Under the pieces are notes generated by a model that was not told where the DNA came from, did not search any database, and saw only the letters and a program-made list of their open reading frames with translations. From assembly GCA_014239735.1 (NCBI GenBank), contig JAAZYI010000010.1, positions 1-64,000 of the forward strand: a stretch of 64,000 bases of DNA, read 5' to 3'. Made by a program: the position numbers and the translations under genes. Origin of the DNA: Dehalococcoidia bacterium (lineage in GTDB: Bacteria > Chloroflexota > Dehalococcoidia > Lucifugimonadales > Lucifugimonadaceae). How positions within the stretch are numbered: position 1 is the stretch's first letter; every line of letters begins with the position of its first letter. Below are positions 45,126-53,973 of the stretch, piece after piece.

Positions 45126-46412
45126 TTGGATATAAAAAGTTTATGGGCAAGGTCTTTAGAGATCCTTAAAGAAGAGATAAACTCAATAAATTTTAATATG
45201 TGGATATCCCCTATTGAGCCCACCTCTTATAAAGACAATTCTTTAACCTTAAGCGTTGAAGGGCCCTTTGCTTTGGAAATGCTACAGGCAAGATTAATGC
45301 CTAATTTAAAAAGAGCTGTTGAGGAATCCTGTGGAGTGGCAACAGAAATTTTAATAGTTAATAAAAAATCCGCAAAAACTGAAATTCACCTGCCATCAAA
45401 GTCAAACAGCAACAAATATACTTTTGATTCTTTTATTGTGGGCCCTTCAAATGAACTGGCTTTCGCAGCCTGTAAACAGTTTGCGGATTTTTCGGAAACG
45501 GATTTCAACCCTTTATATGTCTATTCAAATGTAGGTCTTGGTAAAACTCATCTACTTCTGTCAATTCACGGTTCCCTTATAAAGCAAGGCTTAAAAGTAA
45601 AATATATTACTTCGGAAAGATTCACGAATGAATACATTAAGGCAATTAAGGAAAAGAAAACGGAGTCATTTCGATCTGAGCATAGATCTTGCGATGCCCT
45701 AATTGTTGATGATATTCAATTTTTAAGTGGGAAAACACAAACTCAGGAAGGCTTCTTTCACACATTTAATGATCTTTATTTAAATAACAAAAAAATTATT
45801 CTGGCTGGGGACGACCCTTCAAAATTAATAGAATTCGAGGCAAGGCTAACAAGTCGTTTTCAGTCTGGGTTGGTGGTTGATATTCAGCCTCCTGACTATG
45901 AAACAAAAGTGGCAATCATTGAATATAAGGCTGAAAAGTTAAGTCTCAATATTAATAGCGAAATTATAGATCATGTCGCACAGCTGTGCCAGGTAAATAT
46001 CAGACAAATTGAGTCTATTTTAAATAGGCTGAAAGCAATGTCGCAACTAAGGGAAGAGCCGATTGATATTGATGGAGCTAAGTCTATGATAATAGGATTT
46101 GATGATATTAAAATTAATAATAAGCCAGGGCCTTCTGAGGTTCTGAATAAAGTGGCAACACATCTAGGAGTGTCTGAAGAAGAGATTAAAAGTAATAGCA
46201 GAGGTGCTCAAATTGTTTATGCTCGAAGAATTTCTAGTTTTATTTTAAATAAGGACCTTAATCTGACATTGTCAGCCTCTGGCGCCCTATTAGGCAATAA
46301 AAACCATGCAACTGTGCTTAATGCTGTAAGATTTGTAGAAAACTCAATGGAGTCTGATTTTGATATGCGCTACAACTTGCAAAAAATTAGAAACTCTCTA
46401 AGAATTTTCTAA
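45126..46412 (+). CDS. dnaA: Chromosomal replication initiator DnaA
   Basis: 428 residues from a TTG start (GAGG site ten or so bases before). The N-terminal domain is followed by an AAA+ core with Walker A NVGLGKTHLL (about 137-146) and Walker B ALIVDDIQFLSGK. The C-terminal DNA-binding domain ends SASGALLGNKNHATVLNAV. The usual RDHTTV signature is KNHATV: the Asp and first Thr that contact the DnaA box in E. coli (D433, T435) are Asn and Ala, while His is kept. Linker domain II is short. It opens the replication origin; the AT-rich gap after its stop is a candidate oriC. Confidence 0.94.
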   Translation: MDIKSLWARSLEILKEEINSINFNMWISPIEPTSYKDNSLTLSVEGPFALEMLQARLMPNLKRAVEESCGVATEILIVNKKSAKTEIHLPSKSNSNKYTFDSFIVGPSNELAFAACKQFADFSETDFNPLYVYSNVGLGKTHLLLSIHGSLIKQGLKVKYITSERFTNEYIKAIKEKKTESFRSEHRSCDALIVDDIQFLSGKTQTQEGFFHTFNDLYLNNKKIILAGDDPSKLIEFEARLTSRFQSGLVVDIQPPDYETKVAIIEYKAEKLSLNINSEIIDHVAQLCQVNIRQIESILNRLKAMSQLREEPIDIDGAKSMIIGFDDIKINNKPGPSEVLNKVATHLGVSEEEIKSNSRGAQIVYARRISSFILNKDLNLTLSASGALLGNKNHATVLNAVRFVENSMESDFDMRYNLQKIRNSLRIF

Positions 46413-46593
46413 CATTTTTATTGTTATCTATTGTTATTTGCTTGTTAAATCTAATTAAAAATTAAGAAAAGCATTTCTTTTATTATTATTATTTACAAAT
46501 TAAAAAATAATTGTGAATAATTAAAAAATTTTTTAATTACAAATAACACAGTTAACATAAATAACAAGCTTATTATTTTTATTATAAAATTAA
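46413..46593. other. Candidate replication origin (AT-rich gap with TTGTTA repeats)
   Basis: This 181-base gap between dnaA and obg is extremely AT-rich. It holds TTGTTATCT (46421-46429), TTGTTATTT (46431-46439), TTGTTAAAT (46442-46450), inverted AAATAACA (46541-46548) and AAATAACAA (46559-46567), plus one DnaA-box match TGTGAATAA (46512-46520, reverse complement TTATTCACA). GCTTGTTA/TAACAAGC flank the region. Location beside dnaA, AT content and clustered repeats fit oriC; only one recognisable DnaA box is present. Confidence 0.4.
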
Positions 46594-47796
46594 ATGAAAT
46601 CAAAAATTAAATTAATACTAATATCAGGGAATGGTGGTGATGGTTGGGTTTCTTTTAGGAAAGAAAAATTTGTTCCTAGAGGAGGACCTGATGGTGGTGA
46701 TGGTGGTGATGGTGGTGATGTAATACTTAAACCAAGCGCAGATATTTGGGACTTAAGGAATTTTGAAGAAAATCAAATATTAGTAGGTGGTGATGGTGGT
46801 GATGGTGGAAAAAGAAAAAAAAATGGAAAAAAGGGAGAAAATTTAATTATAAATATTCCTTGTAATACAGAAGTAATTTTTTCTAATCAAAAAAAAGTAA
46901 TAACAAATAGTAATTTTTTATTATTAAGAGGTGGTGATGGTGGAAGAGGAAATAGAACTTTTAAAAACTCCATTAACCAGGAGCCGCTTTTAGCTGAGGC
47001 CGGAGATGAAGGACAAGAAATAAGCATAGAACTAAGAATAAAAGATTTGCCGAAGGCAGTAATTTTTGGGCTATCAAATTCAGGAAAAACTTATATCTTA
47101 AATAAAATAACAAATGCGGCCGCAAAAGAAGCAGACTACCCATTCACAACCACAACCCCAGTTATAGCTGAAATCAAAAATGACATTGAAAGTATCAAAG
47201 TCGCAGAGATTCCCGATTTTATTAATTATAAGAAAGCGTCAGAATATTCATCACTTTTAAATGAAGCAAGGGTTGTGATAATAACTATAAATCATGATGA
47301 TAAGGCTACTGAAACATACAGGGCTATTAATAAGATAGTTGATAATAAAACAGGTAATTTTTGTGAAAAAATTCTGATATTAAATAAATCAGAAGAAACA
47401 CTAAAAGGTAGGTTTAGCGCAGATATAGACCCAAATAATATTTTTTATGTAACAAATAATAATATTGATATTGAGCGCCTAAAAAATTTGGTGATTAGTT
47501 TAGGCAAGGTAAATTTTAAGAAAGACGAGCCCCCAAAAGAAGAAGTCTTTATTCATGAGCCCCCAATAATGAAAGATTCCAACAAACAAAAATTTTCTTT
47601 TTCGGAAAAAATAGTGCAAGTATTTGATAAAAAACTGGTAAGGGTGGCTAAAGGGAGCAATTTAAGCAAGCCGGAAGCGCAGCTTCAGTTTCATAACTTA
47701 TTGAACAAAAGAGGCTACCTAAAAGCCTTTAAAGCTGCTGGTGTTTCAAAAGGGGCGACAATAAAATTTGATGATATTGAAATGGAATTTAAGTGA
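46594..47796 (+). CDS. obgE: Obg/CgtA-family protein with degenerate GTPase motifs
   Basis: 400 residues. The N-terminal Obg fold (1-150) has its glycine-rich arms (GGPDGGDGGDGGDVIL, GGDGGDGGKRKKNGKKGE). The G domain has a P-loop GLSNSGKT (159-166) and a switch-like ADYPFTTTTP, but G3, normally DxPG, is EIPDF (205-209) and G4, normally NKxD, is NKSE (264-267). The C-terminal OCT domain is intact (RVAKGSNLSKPEAQLQF). Obg assists 50S assembly and stress control; nucleotide specificity or hydrolysis here is likely altered. Its TGA overlaps the nadD GTG. Confidence 0.85.
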   Translation: MKSKIKLILISGNGGDGWVSFRKEKFVPRGGPDGGDGGDGGDVILKPSADIWDLRNFEENQILVGGDGGDGGKRKKNGKKGENLIINIPCNTEVIFSNQKKVITNSNFLLLRGGDGGRGNRTFKNSINQEPLLAEAGDEGQEISIELRIKDLPKAVIFGLSNSGKTYILNKITNAAAKEADYPFTTTTPVIAEIKNDIESIKVAEIPDFINYKKASEYSSLLNEARVVIITINHDDKATETYRAINKIVDNKTGNFCEKILILNKSEETLKGRFSADIDPNNIFYVTNNNIDIERLKNLVISLGKVNFKKDEPPKEEVFIHEPPIMKDSNKQKFSFSEKIVQVFDKKLVRVAKGSNLSKPEAQLQFHNLLNKRGYLKAFKAAGVSKGATIKFDDIEMEFK

Positions 47797-48917: not shown

Positions 48918-50324
48918 CTACATATGAATGGCTCCGTTGTTTAATGACAATGCTGCCTCTTTAACTGCCTCTGATAATGTTGGGTGTGCGTGAGTAAGCT
49001 CAGCAATCTCTATGTCTGTGCCTTCTAAATACTTTAAGAGGCCTACCTCAGCTATTATTTCTGTTACTTCTGGCCCAATCATATGGGCTCCTAGCAACTC
49101 ACCGCTATCCTGATCGGCTATCATTTTCACAAATCCTTCAGAATCACCAACAGCTATTGCCTTCCCAACAGCCTTAAAAGGGAATTGGGACACTTTTATG
49201 TTAAAACCTTCTTCTTTTGCCTGTATTTCTGTCAGGCCTATGCTTGCTATTTGAGGCTGACAGTATGTACATTTTGGCATATCGGCATAATTTATGGGGG
49301 CACATTCCAACCCAGATATTGTTTCTGCAGCTATTATTCCTTGAGTAAAAGCCACATGCGCCAACATCAGCTTCCCAGTTACATCTCCGACGGCAAAAAT
49401 GTTAGGAGAAGATGTTTGCATAGAATTATTTATTTTCACAAATCCTCTGTCTAGTTCTATTCCAACTTTTTCAAGGCCTAGGTTGTCAGCGTTTGCCTGA
49501 ACTCCAACCGCTACTAATATTTTTTCTGCTGAATAATTTTTTTGTTCTCCGTTGGCTTCGTATTCTATTTCCATTTCACCTTCGCTCCCCCCTGTCTTTA
49601 ATACCTTCGCTCCCAACTCAAATTTTATCCCTTGCGCCTTAAAAGCCTTTTCAAGTTCTTCTGAAATTGACTCGTCTTCATTTGGGACCAAATGGCTTTG
49701 AATCTCAAAAATTGTAACCTCTACTCCATAGGCATTAAACAGATAAGCAAACTCTACTCCTATTGCTCCAGCGCCAATAATTCCTATTGCCTTTGGAAGC
49801 GTTTTTAGCTCTAGAGCCTCTCTGCTTGTTATGATTCCTTTTCTGTCTATTTCGAGATTTGGTAAACTTCTAGGTCTTGCGCCAGTTGCCAAAATAATAT
49901 TTTTAGAAGAGATTTTATCGCCGCTTGATTTAAGCGATATTTCAGTGGAGCTTTCAAGCAAGCCCTCATCTTTAAATAATTGTATTTTGTTTTTTTTGAT
50001 CAGGTACTCAATTCCTTGGGTTAATTGTTTTGAGACATCCCTGCTTCTTGCGATAGCTTTTGAAAAATCAAATGTTACATTATCAAATGATATTCCCCAT
50101 TTTTCTGAATCTTTAATTTGGTTAACTAGTTCCGCATTTTTTAATAAAGATTTGCTTGGGATACATCCCCAATTTAAACAAACTCCCCCCAATCCAGCTA
50201 TTCCAGACCCGTCATCTTTTTCTATTAATGCTGTTTTAAGTCCAAGCTGAGCTGATCTAATTGCGGCATGATAGCCTCCAGGCCCACCCCCCAAAACTGT
50301 TATATCAAAATTATTTTCAGACAT
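48918..50324 (-). CDS. lpdA: Dihydrolipoyl dehydrogenase (E3)
   Basis: 468 residues. The FAD site is GGGPGGYHAA (12-21), the redox disulfide Cys49/Cys54 lies in GGVCLNWGCIPSKS, the NAD site is GIIGAGAIGVEF, and the dimer domain carries the catalytic His-Glu pair in HAHPTLSEAVKEA. It reoxidises the lipoyl arm of E2 complexes. The E1/E2 cluster at 29111-32255 has no own E3, so LpdA probably serves it. A 71-residue membrane protein gene precedes it by 12 bases. Confidence 0.95.
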   Translation of the reverse strand: MSENNFDITVLGGGPGGYHAAIRSAQLGLKTALIEKDDGSGIAGLGGVCLNWGCIPSKSLLKNAELVNQIKDSEKWGISFDNVTFDFSKAIARSRDVSKQLTQGIEYLIKKNKIQLFKDEGLLESSTEISLKSSGDKISSKNIILATGARPRSLPNLEIDRKGIITSREALELKTLPKAIGIIGAGAIGVEFAYLFNAYGVEVTIFEIQSHLVPNEDESISEELEKAFKAQGIKFELGAKVLKTGGSEGEMEIEYEANGEQKNYSAEKILVAVGVQANADNLGLEKVGIELDRGFVKINNSMQTSSPNIFAVGDVTGKLMLAHVAFTQGIIAAETISGLECAPINYADMPKCTYCQPQIASIGLTEIQAKEEGFNIKVSQFPFKAVGKAIAVGDSEGFVKMIADQDSGELLGAHMIGPEVTEIIAEVGLLKYLEGTDIEIAELTHAHPTLSEAVKEAALSLNNGAIHM

Positions 50325-50554: not shown

Positions 50555-51448
50555 CTATCTTTTAATGCCCCTGCTCAGCAACTTAAAGCTCCCTGCTTTT
50601 GTATTCAATGAGGTAAGCGCAAGCTGAGTTCTGCTTTGCAAAATTCTTAATGAACTTATTAATTTAAGCCTTTTAAATTCCGGGATTTCCTCGGATTGGA
50701 TTAAGTCTATCTCAGTGGACAAATCCAGGATTCTGGATTCAATTGTATCGAAATCTATAGAATTTGCTTCTATTTCATTGCCTTCTTTTTCCACCTCAGA
50801 CATTTTTTCAACAATAGGCTTTCCCTTGGTAACGCTTTCAATAATTATCTTCACCTCAACCTTGGGGTGCTTCTTCGCCAAAGATACAATCTTTTCAACG
50901 TGAACAGAACTTAATATTCCTTCTAAAAAGGGTTTTGCAAGTTCAAATTGTTTTTCATGATCCTCTATGTCAGCTATGCTCCTCGCTTCCTTAAAAGTTA
51001 AATTTTTCTCCTTAACATGTTCCTTTAAAGAGGGGGCAAGCGTTTTTATTAGACTCTCATAGTGATGTATAGTTCCAGGAGTTATTCCTGTTTTTTTTGC
51101 AAGCTCTTGTTGAGTTACAGAAAATTTTTCTCTAAATGAAAGAAATTCCTCTCCTAGGTTAATAGGGCATATATCAGAACTTTGGTATAAAAGCCTGAGG
51201 TCTAGCGCTCCCTTTTGTTCGAAATCAAGCTCGCTTGTTAGATTGCATTCGACTGAGTCTTCTCCTTTCTCATTAGCAAGGTGAATTTTTTCTGCGCCCG
51301 AAACAAGTTTGTATTTTTTATTAGAAACTTTATCAACAACAGGGACAAATTGATTAGAAAACTTAGACCACCGTTTAGTTTCTTTCCTTGACTCAAGTTT
51401 TGCTGTAGATTCCGCATCAAACTCAATGTTAGCTATATTTATTTTCAA
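50555..51448 (-). CDS. ParB-like DNA-binding protein with degenerate CTPase motif
   Basis: 297 residues from TTG 51448, chosen because GGGAGG lies exactly five bases upstream; a longer frame to 51511 lacks a ribosome site. Layout follows ParB: an N-terminal domain with KYKLVSGAEKIHLANE where ParBs have GERRxRA, then LYQSSDICPINLGEEFLSF in place of the ENLQRxDLxPxEEA box, then a helix-turn-helix (VTQQELAKKTGITPGTIHHYESL), a linker helix and a C-terminal dimerisation-like region. CTP-binding residues are changed. No parA is adjacent. It is divergent from a DUF5343 gene across a palindromic region. Confidence 0.75.
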   Translation of the reverse strand: MKINIANIEFDAESTAKLESRKETKRWSKFSNQFVPVVDKVSNKKYKLVSGAEKIHLANEKGEDSVECNLTSELDFEQKGALDLRLLYQSSDICPINLGEEFLSFREKFSVTQQELAKKTGITPGTIHHYESLIKTLAPSLKEHVKEKNLTFKEARSIADIEDHEKQFELAKPFLEGILSSVHVEKIVSLAKKHPKVEVKIIIESVTKGKPIVEKMSEVEKEGNEIEANSIDFDTIESRILDLSTEIDLIQSEEIPEFKRLKLISSLRILQSRTQLALTSLNTKAGSFKLLSRGIKR

Positions 51449-51489
51449 TGTGACCTCCCATAGGTTCTGATTTATATTCATAATTATGA

Positions 51490-51501
51490 ACATTCCGAAA
51501 A
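51490..51501 (+). promoter_or_regulatory. ACATTCCGAAAA site, copy 1
   Basis: ACATTCCGAAAA lies 42 bases before the TTG of the ParB-like gene. It matches the half-site core of the palindrome at 51534-51567 (ACATTCYRAAA). Probably one operator copy of a cluster of four, including both palindrome arms. Confidence 0.4.
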
Positions 51502-51533
51502 GCAGTTTCAAATATTGTCCTAGTGGGAAATTT

Positions 51534-51567
51534 ACACATTCTAAAAATGATTATTTTTGGAATGTGT
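51534..51567. promoter_or_regulatory. 34-bp near-perfect palindrome between parB-like and DUF5343 genes
   Basis: ACACATTCTAAAAAT (51534-51548) and ATTTTTGGAATGTGT (51553-51567) are inverted copies with one mismatch, separated by GATT. Symmetric 15-base arms in the middle of a divergent intergenic region are typical of an operator or a ParB-type centromere site. No run of T follows, so it is not a terminator. A promoter-like TATATA (about 51575-51580) lies just after it. Confidence 0.6.
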
Positions 51568-51609
51568 GGTAGAATATATAAAGATATTTAACAAGGATTT
51601 ATATTTAAA

Positions 51610-52275
51610 ATGCAAAGAAAATTAGGCAAAGTCGGTCTTCCATATGTTTCATATAGAACATTCCGAAATTTTTTAGAACTACTGAACGAAGGTATGCCCG
51701 CCAGGATAGATAGAAGTGTTTGGGGCCCAAGATACTCTGGAACCTCTGGCCAGCAACTCATGACTGCCCTAAAAAACCTTGACCTTATTGATGATGTGGG
51801 CGTTCCGCTAAGAGCACTTGAAGAGCTTGTGGTATCTGTGGGAGCTGAAAGAAGGAATTATCTTAAGATAATTTTAAAGGATAAATACAAGCCAATATTT
51901 GAAATTGATTTACTAAGAGCCACGCGATCTCAATTTAATGAAGCATTTAGATACTTTGGAATCAATGAGGGTGTTTTAAGTAAGTGCCAGCTTTTTTTTA
52001 TACAGGCTTGTCAAGATGCGGGAATAGAGCTTTCCGCATATATACTTGCAAGAAGGCATGGATTATCTAGTAGAAAAAAATCTGAAAAAGCTATGGCTTC
52101 TAGGCAGAGTGCGCCTCAAAAGTCTGATAAATTAGAAATAAATGAAGCTGTTATTTCAAAGATTCTAGAAAAATATCCTGATTTTGACCCATCTTGGGAT
52201 CCTGAAGTACAAAAAGCATGGATGGATGGAATGGTCAAGTTATACGAAGGATTGAAAAGCGAAGACAAAAAATAA
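51610..52275 (+). CDS. DUF5343 family protein
   Basis: 221 residues. LPYVSYRTFRNFLELLNEGMPARIDRSVW at the start and the spacing to QQLMTALKNLDLIDDVGVPLRALEELV fit DUF5343, a winged-helix-like domain of unknown function. A helical C-terminal part with RKKSEKAMASRQ and an acidic end follows. It may bind nucleic acid; this is inferred from the fold-like pattern. Another ACATTCCGAAA site lies within its first codons (51658-51669). It ends in a bidirectional terminator shared with groEL. Confidence 0.8.
   Translation: MQRKLGKVGLPYVSYRTFRNFLELLNEGMPARIDRSVWGPRYSGTSGQQLMTALKNLDLIDDVGVPLRALEELVVSVGAERRNYLKIILKDKYKPIFEIDLLRATRSQFNEAFRYFGINEGVLSKCQLFFIQACQDAGIELSAYILARRHGLSSRKKSEKAMASRQSAPQKSDKLEINEAVISKILEKYPDFDPSWDPEVQKAWMDGMVKLYEGLKSEDKK
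51658..51669 (+). promoter_or_regulatory. ACATTCCGAAAT site, copy 4
   Basis: ACATTCCGAAAT within codons 17-20 of the DUF5343 gene repeats the half-site of the upstream palindrome in the same orientation as copy 1. Location inside the coding start would allow roadblock repression or spreading by a ParB-like protein. It could also be a chance match inside coding sequence. Confidence 0.3.
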
Positions 52276-52304
52276 AAAGGGCAGGAGTAATGCCCGCCCT
52301 TTTT
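52274..52304. terminator. Bidirectional terminator between DUF5343 gene and groEL
   Basis: AAAAAGGGC (52274-52282) pairs with GCCCTTTTT (52296-52304) around a 13-base loop that itself can form GGGC/GCCC alternatives. A/T tracts on both ends allow use in either direction. It lies between two convergent stop codons. Confidence 0.85.
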
Positions 52305-52320
52305 AAAGATCAATCTATTT

Positions 52321-53973
<1,653 letters not shown>

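Follow-up and report, generated by a model that had tools for sequence, protein, structure and literature searches.

The locus described here raises the question of which protein reads the palindromic sites that lie between a ParB-like gene and a divergent DUF5343-like gene. The analysed stretch (hereafter the window, 64,000 nt) comes from a draft genome of 1.29 Mb that belongs to the oceanic SAR202 bacteria within the Chloroflexota, in the same family as Ca. Lucifugimonas marina. Between lpd (48918–50324, minus strand) and groEL (ending at 53961, minus strand) we found a small ORF, the ParB-like gene (50555–51448, minus strand, 297 aa) and the DUF5343-like gene (51610–52275, plus strand, 221 aa), with a terminator-like hairpin (52273–52305, minus strand) where the DUF5343 and groEL genes converge. 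A long version of the ParB-like gene that starts with TTG at 51511 is probably wrong; the family alignment and a GGGAGG ribosome-binding site directly upstream favour the TTG at 51446–51448, and with this start the site at 51490 is intergenic and falls in the ParB-like promoter. The same gene pair is present in named SAR202/Dehalococcoidia genomes, including the complete Ca. Lucifugimonas marina JH1073 (CP046147.1), and the Lucifugimonas paper does not mention ParB. Elsewhere in the window, groEL (52321–53961) is read as two ORFs of one frame with an in-frame stop near 53431, for which an assembly error, a strain variant or a pseudogene are candidates. Downstream of dnaA, a possible origin region (46412–46594) holds a DnaA-box-like TTATTCACA at 46512 together with a pair of imperfect palindromes whose centres are at 46528 and 46568.

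The ParB-like protein comprises a degenerate ParB_N fold, a ParB/Noc HTH domain and C-terminal helices. Its HTH_ParB domain (PF17762) scored 44 bits, above the cut-off, and among 43 relatives HTH_ParB was detected in all and ParB_N in 22. The predicted structure (pLDDT 78) confirmed the ParB fold: ParB and Noc led the Foldseek results (E about 1e-8), KorB was matched as well, and the Noc/ParB DNA-binding domain aligned over 116 residues at 2.4 Å with a Z of 15.9. The CTP boxes are altered, as originally predicted, with GAEK in place of the canonical GERR and LLYQSS in place of ENLQR. However, the loss of GERR holds for the window and not for the whole family. Across the 43 sequences the HTH was nearly invariant while the CTP boxes varied: two genera, both early-branching, retain GERRWR, a third has GERLW, and GAEK, GHNT, GEKI and others occur elsewhere; the final R of ENxQR was found in none of the 43. 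With Noc, Spo0J and one distant homologue as the root, the GERR-keeping genera came out at the base of the tree, which suggests that the boxes decayed within the Lucifugimonas family. Given its long root branch and an alignment that included the boxes themselves, however, the tree is no independent proof of this decay. At the positions that set ParB or Noc specificity, the alignment gave P, Y, K or T (an alignment gap falls at this third position) and K, which match neither the RTAG of ParB nor the QKKR of Noc (PMC7383237).

Such a protein could be the remnant of a partition or nucleoid-occlusion system that marks the origin region without ParABS, with this locus as its sole centromere-like site, and several observations are in line with this reading. 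In the 16 genomes where the ParB-like gene and dnaA share a contig, the two are 4–75 kb apart in 15, and two of the three complete genomes have the gene close to dnaA. The complete family genomes encode no other HTH_ParB protein above threshold and no further ParB_N match over the cut-off, and the nearest curated family is Noc, although the match (TIGR04285, E 1e-9) is far below that family's cut-off. On the other hand, a distance of 0.5 Mb separates the two in the third complete genome (G036), and the proximity seen elsewhere may be inherited synteny. The absence of ParA stood up to closer inspection: no ParA neighbour was found beside the ParB-like genes, the ParA-binding motif was present in none of 55 ParB-like sequences, the AAA_31 profile had no match in the window's own draft genome, and a standard ParA/ParB chromosome-partition pair was not found in the Lucifugimonas family. 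The loss of the CTP boxes in most genera makes clamp spreading doubtful. In the window, no NBS site was found with up to three mismatches allowed, and the single parS-like match, with three mismatches, is not significant (0.26 expected). PADLOC matches were weak. We consider a degenerate partition system improbable, also in view of the single palindrome per genome described below.

The ParB-like gene was found in 71 of 76 family genomes, those that lack it being mostly incomplete, and gave three weak matches among the other genomes of the order that were searched. It is adjacent to and divergent from the DUF5343 gene in all 55 relatives, as expected of a self-contained divergent unit. Contigs labelled Woeseia (L149) and Ca. 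Wildermuthbacteria (L181) carry the family's ParB-like gene as well, with 84% and 48% identity to the query, respectively; at least the former is probably a binning error.

The sites themselves are beyond doubt. Exact ACATTCYRAAA occurs in the 64-kb window only at 51490, 51536 and 51658 on the plus strand and at 51555 on the minus strand, that is, four times inside 180 bp, two of the copies being the arms of a palindrome. A first-order Markov model gave 0.52 expected copies per 64 kb and never more than 3 in any of 100 runs, which rules out chance clustering. Both the copies and the 34-base palindrome are at the positions originally given. In the whole draft genome the motif had nine matches, four of them at this locus, against five for the reversed control pattern. 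The palindrome (51534–51567; arms ATTCYRAA-N10-TTTGGAAT) surrounds the DUF5343 promoter, pairs at 15 of 17 positions, and is the best zero-gap palindrome with 17-bp arms in the window. An ATTCC...GGAAT palindrome lies over the DUF5343 promoter in most of the 55 family genomes, at the same place in most genera, so the expectation that palindromic sites would be conserved upstream of orthologues was borne out. In relatives the pattern occurs about once per genome, and once in the complete 3.09-Mb genome G020. It is thus not a dispersed set of the parS or NBS type, and the partition-like role proposed for the unit is unlikely from the DNA side.

On the other divergent side, the half-site ACATTCCGAAA (51490–51500, plus strand) lies between the -35 and -10 of the predicted ParB-like promoter (TTGAAA-17-CATAAT, 51483–51511, minus strand; 10 of 12 positions match), whose register is kept in relatives; half-sites overlap promoter hexamers in both directions. 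Because sigma-70 promoter-like matches in the region were no commoner than in shuffled sequence, the predicted promoters rest on their conservation across genera. The -35 is contained in the reverse complement of a conserved TTCAAATATTGTCC element (51507–51520, plus strand) that occurs at most a few times per genome, and the intergenic region keeps the half-site together with this TTCAAA..TGTCC element in the 55 family genomes. A GGGAAA element (51525–51530, plus strand) follows.

The sites had been placed between and just inside the two genes. They are in fact intergenic, except for the copy at 51658, which lies within DUF5343 (ACATTCCGAAATTTTTTAGAAC, 51658–51679, plus strand; codons for T-F-R-N-F-L-E). 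Synonymous conservation along the gene peaked at codons 17–23 (excess over expectation 0.42, mean 0.05), and the Phe codon in the site was TTC in all 55 family genes as compared with 9 of 17 genes from ParB-like-free loci. Mere coding conservation was ruled out by this synonymous-codon test and its ParB-like-free control. Since the synonymous positions of these codons are by far the most conserved, the codon comparison identifies the 51658 copy as a real DNA site that overlies coding sequence and is peculiar to the ParB-carrying family.

The partner gene proved to be divergent as predicted, but its protein scored only 19.5 bits (E 0.0013) against DUF5343 (PF17278), below the curated threshold of 27 bits, so that DUF5343-like is the safe name; a Dehalococcoidia relative reached 25.3 bits against the same threshold. 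The structural model was mostly helical (pLDDT 81). Foldseek returned no match below E 0.001, and the top VIA-align matches were FokI, BrxA, a Magnetospirillum protein and PaqCI, over 127–150 residues with Z scores of 5.1–6.0, which are low by the tool's own guide. BrxA is a phage-defence protein and is taken to bind DNA; counting it, three of the four matches are DNA-recognition proteins, and the model thus weakly resembles the DNA-recognition domains of FokI, BrxA and PaqCI. In the literature searched, we found no mention of DUF5343.

In order to relate the sites to one protein or the other, DUF5343 loci without the ParB-like gene are informative. Three other families of the order have such loci, and DUF5343 is also present in many Dehalococcoidia, where it usually lies opposite a small ORF and FtsA. 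In the latter (L233–L251) the facing gene is mostly a conserved 69-aa ORF (MGxAIEYQKLMTEIV...), for which no Pfam match was found, followed by ftsA and ftsZ, and some of these loci hold several TTTGTCC copies in the intergenic region. In two other families of the order (L126, L127) DUF5343 faces gyrA, and a TGCCA-type palindrome lies near its promoter. The C-terminal KYPDFDPxW tail of the window protein is common to the ftsA-facing DUF5343 proteins and absent from the gyrA-facing ones.

The original prediction treated ACATTCYRAAA as a new recognition sequence of the ParB-like protein itself, which would bind the palindromes and autoregulate both genes. In favour of this reading, the palindrome extends over the divergent promoters, the protein contains a ParB/Noc DNA-binding domain, and both the ATTCC version of the half-site and the intragenic copy coincide with the ParB-like gene. 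However, half-sites in the same register, some of them TTCCA-type, also lie upstream of DUF5343 genes that face ftsA or gyrA. A CCR core precedes GTCC by exactly 22 nt in 16 of 19 anchored ParB-like-free loci (a count that includes L245, whose anchor is doubtful) and in 35 of 55 family loci; by eye, several ParB-like-free loci have another half-site roughly 45 nt beyond the first. Their half-sites are mostly TGCCA, with the TTCCA type in L233, L235, L243 and L252, and TGTCC is present in 16 of 22 of these loci and in 55 of 55 family loci. The shared register indicates that the sites are probably part of an older DUF5343 promoter region, and that the promoter layout is probably older than the ParB-like gene and associated with DUF5343. 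GGGAAA follows the ParB-like gene more cleanly: it was found in 54 of 55 family loci (9.8 expected) and in 2 of 22 ParB-like-free loci (3.8 expected), a contrast that rests on 12 genera, since related genomes are not independent samples. It is accordingly a better candidate than the ATTCC sites for the predicted ParB-like target. GGGAAA is similar to one half of the Noc site, TATTTCCC-GGGAAATA (PMC7383237), but as a single half-site whose position varies between genera this likeness is only a lead. Judged from these sequence comparisons, the assignment of the ATTCC sites to the ParB-like protein is not supported and is probably incorrect, and the reading as a whole appears doubtful.

We favour, with about even confidence, a divergent autoregulated pair of putative DNA-binding proteins, in which the half-sites belong to DUF5343 and the orphan ParB acts as a local regulator. 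The DUF5343-like protein would be the older partner, which in sister lineages faces ftsA (with ftsZ behind) or gyrA; its most likely targets are the half-sites, (A/G)T(T/G)CCRAA, in both divergent promoters, and it would repress its own gene and the facing one. The facing position would have been taken, in the Lucifugimonas family, by an orphan member of the ParB family. With its HTH near-invariant, its CTP switch being lost and ParA absent, it is most likely a local transcription factor, perhaps acting through the family-specific GGGAAA. As a counterpoint, both the ATTCC consensus (mostly TGCCA elsewhere) and the intragenic copy are confined to the ParB-carrying family, and the ParB-like protein could thus have acquired the sites for itself. 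It is also conceivable that an unlinked third regulator binds the half-sites, both linked genes being merely its targets; an ancient promoter register by itself names no binder, and TGTCC elements are repeated in Dehalococcoidia loci. Yet one site lies inside the DUF5343 gene and the sites are nearly unique to the locus in the genome, which a dedicated local autoregulator fits better, and we regard an outside regulator as quite unlikely.

Among known systems, orphan ParB proteins including Noc (PMC12704722, PNAS 2025) are the nearest in kind: they likewise combine a ParB fold with the ParB/Noc HTH, lie outside a parAB operon and lack the ParA-binding motif, and a clear similarity to ParB, the ParB-CTPase fold included, is found here too. 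Unlike them, the present protein has degraded CTP boxes in most genera, P/Y/(K or T)/K instead of RTAG or QKKR, a constant DUF5343-like partner and only local sites. The family's orphan ParB is hence of a familiar type, with novel details. KorB of plasmid RK2 and VirB are ParB-family gene regulators (PMC11790492, PMC10770331), and regulation is probable here, where a KorB fold match was also obtained; however, KorB and VirB use CTP, whereas this locus is chromosomal, without KorA, with a DUF5343 partner and with degraded CTP boxes. Compared with chromosomal ParABS, the ParB N-terminal and HTH fold is present, but the ParA partner and, in the window, the GERR/ENxQR boxes are absent. The ftsA-facing DUF5343 proteins (PF17278) of Dehalococcoidia look orthologous, with a KFPxFDPxW tail and a homologous divergent promoter layout; the differences are that a ParB-like gene here replaces the small ORF and ftsA, that the half-site is ATTCC where theirs is mostly TGCCA, and that GGGAAA and the intragenic site are added.

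A bolder and rather unlikely extension is that, in a family without ParABS, an orphan ParB entered a regulatory region which in sister lineages lies opposite ftsA. It would have given up CTP switching step by step and would now serve, close to dnaA, as a fixed regulator through which genes of the replication origin or of division are coupled to the DUF5343 protein. In summary, the ParB proteins of one family form a natural series that runs from those with GERRWR to those devoid of CTP boxes, always beside the same partner gene and control region, so that the change from a CTP clamp to an ordinary regulator could be tested. Our results further suggest that members of the uncharacterised DUF5343 family are DNA-binding regulators with a link to ftsA in Dehalococcoidia.
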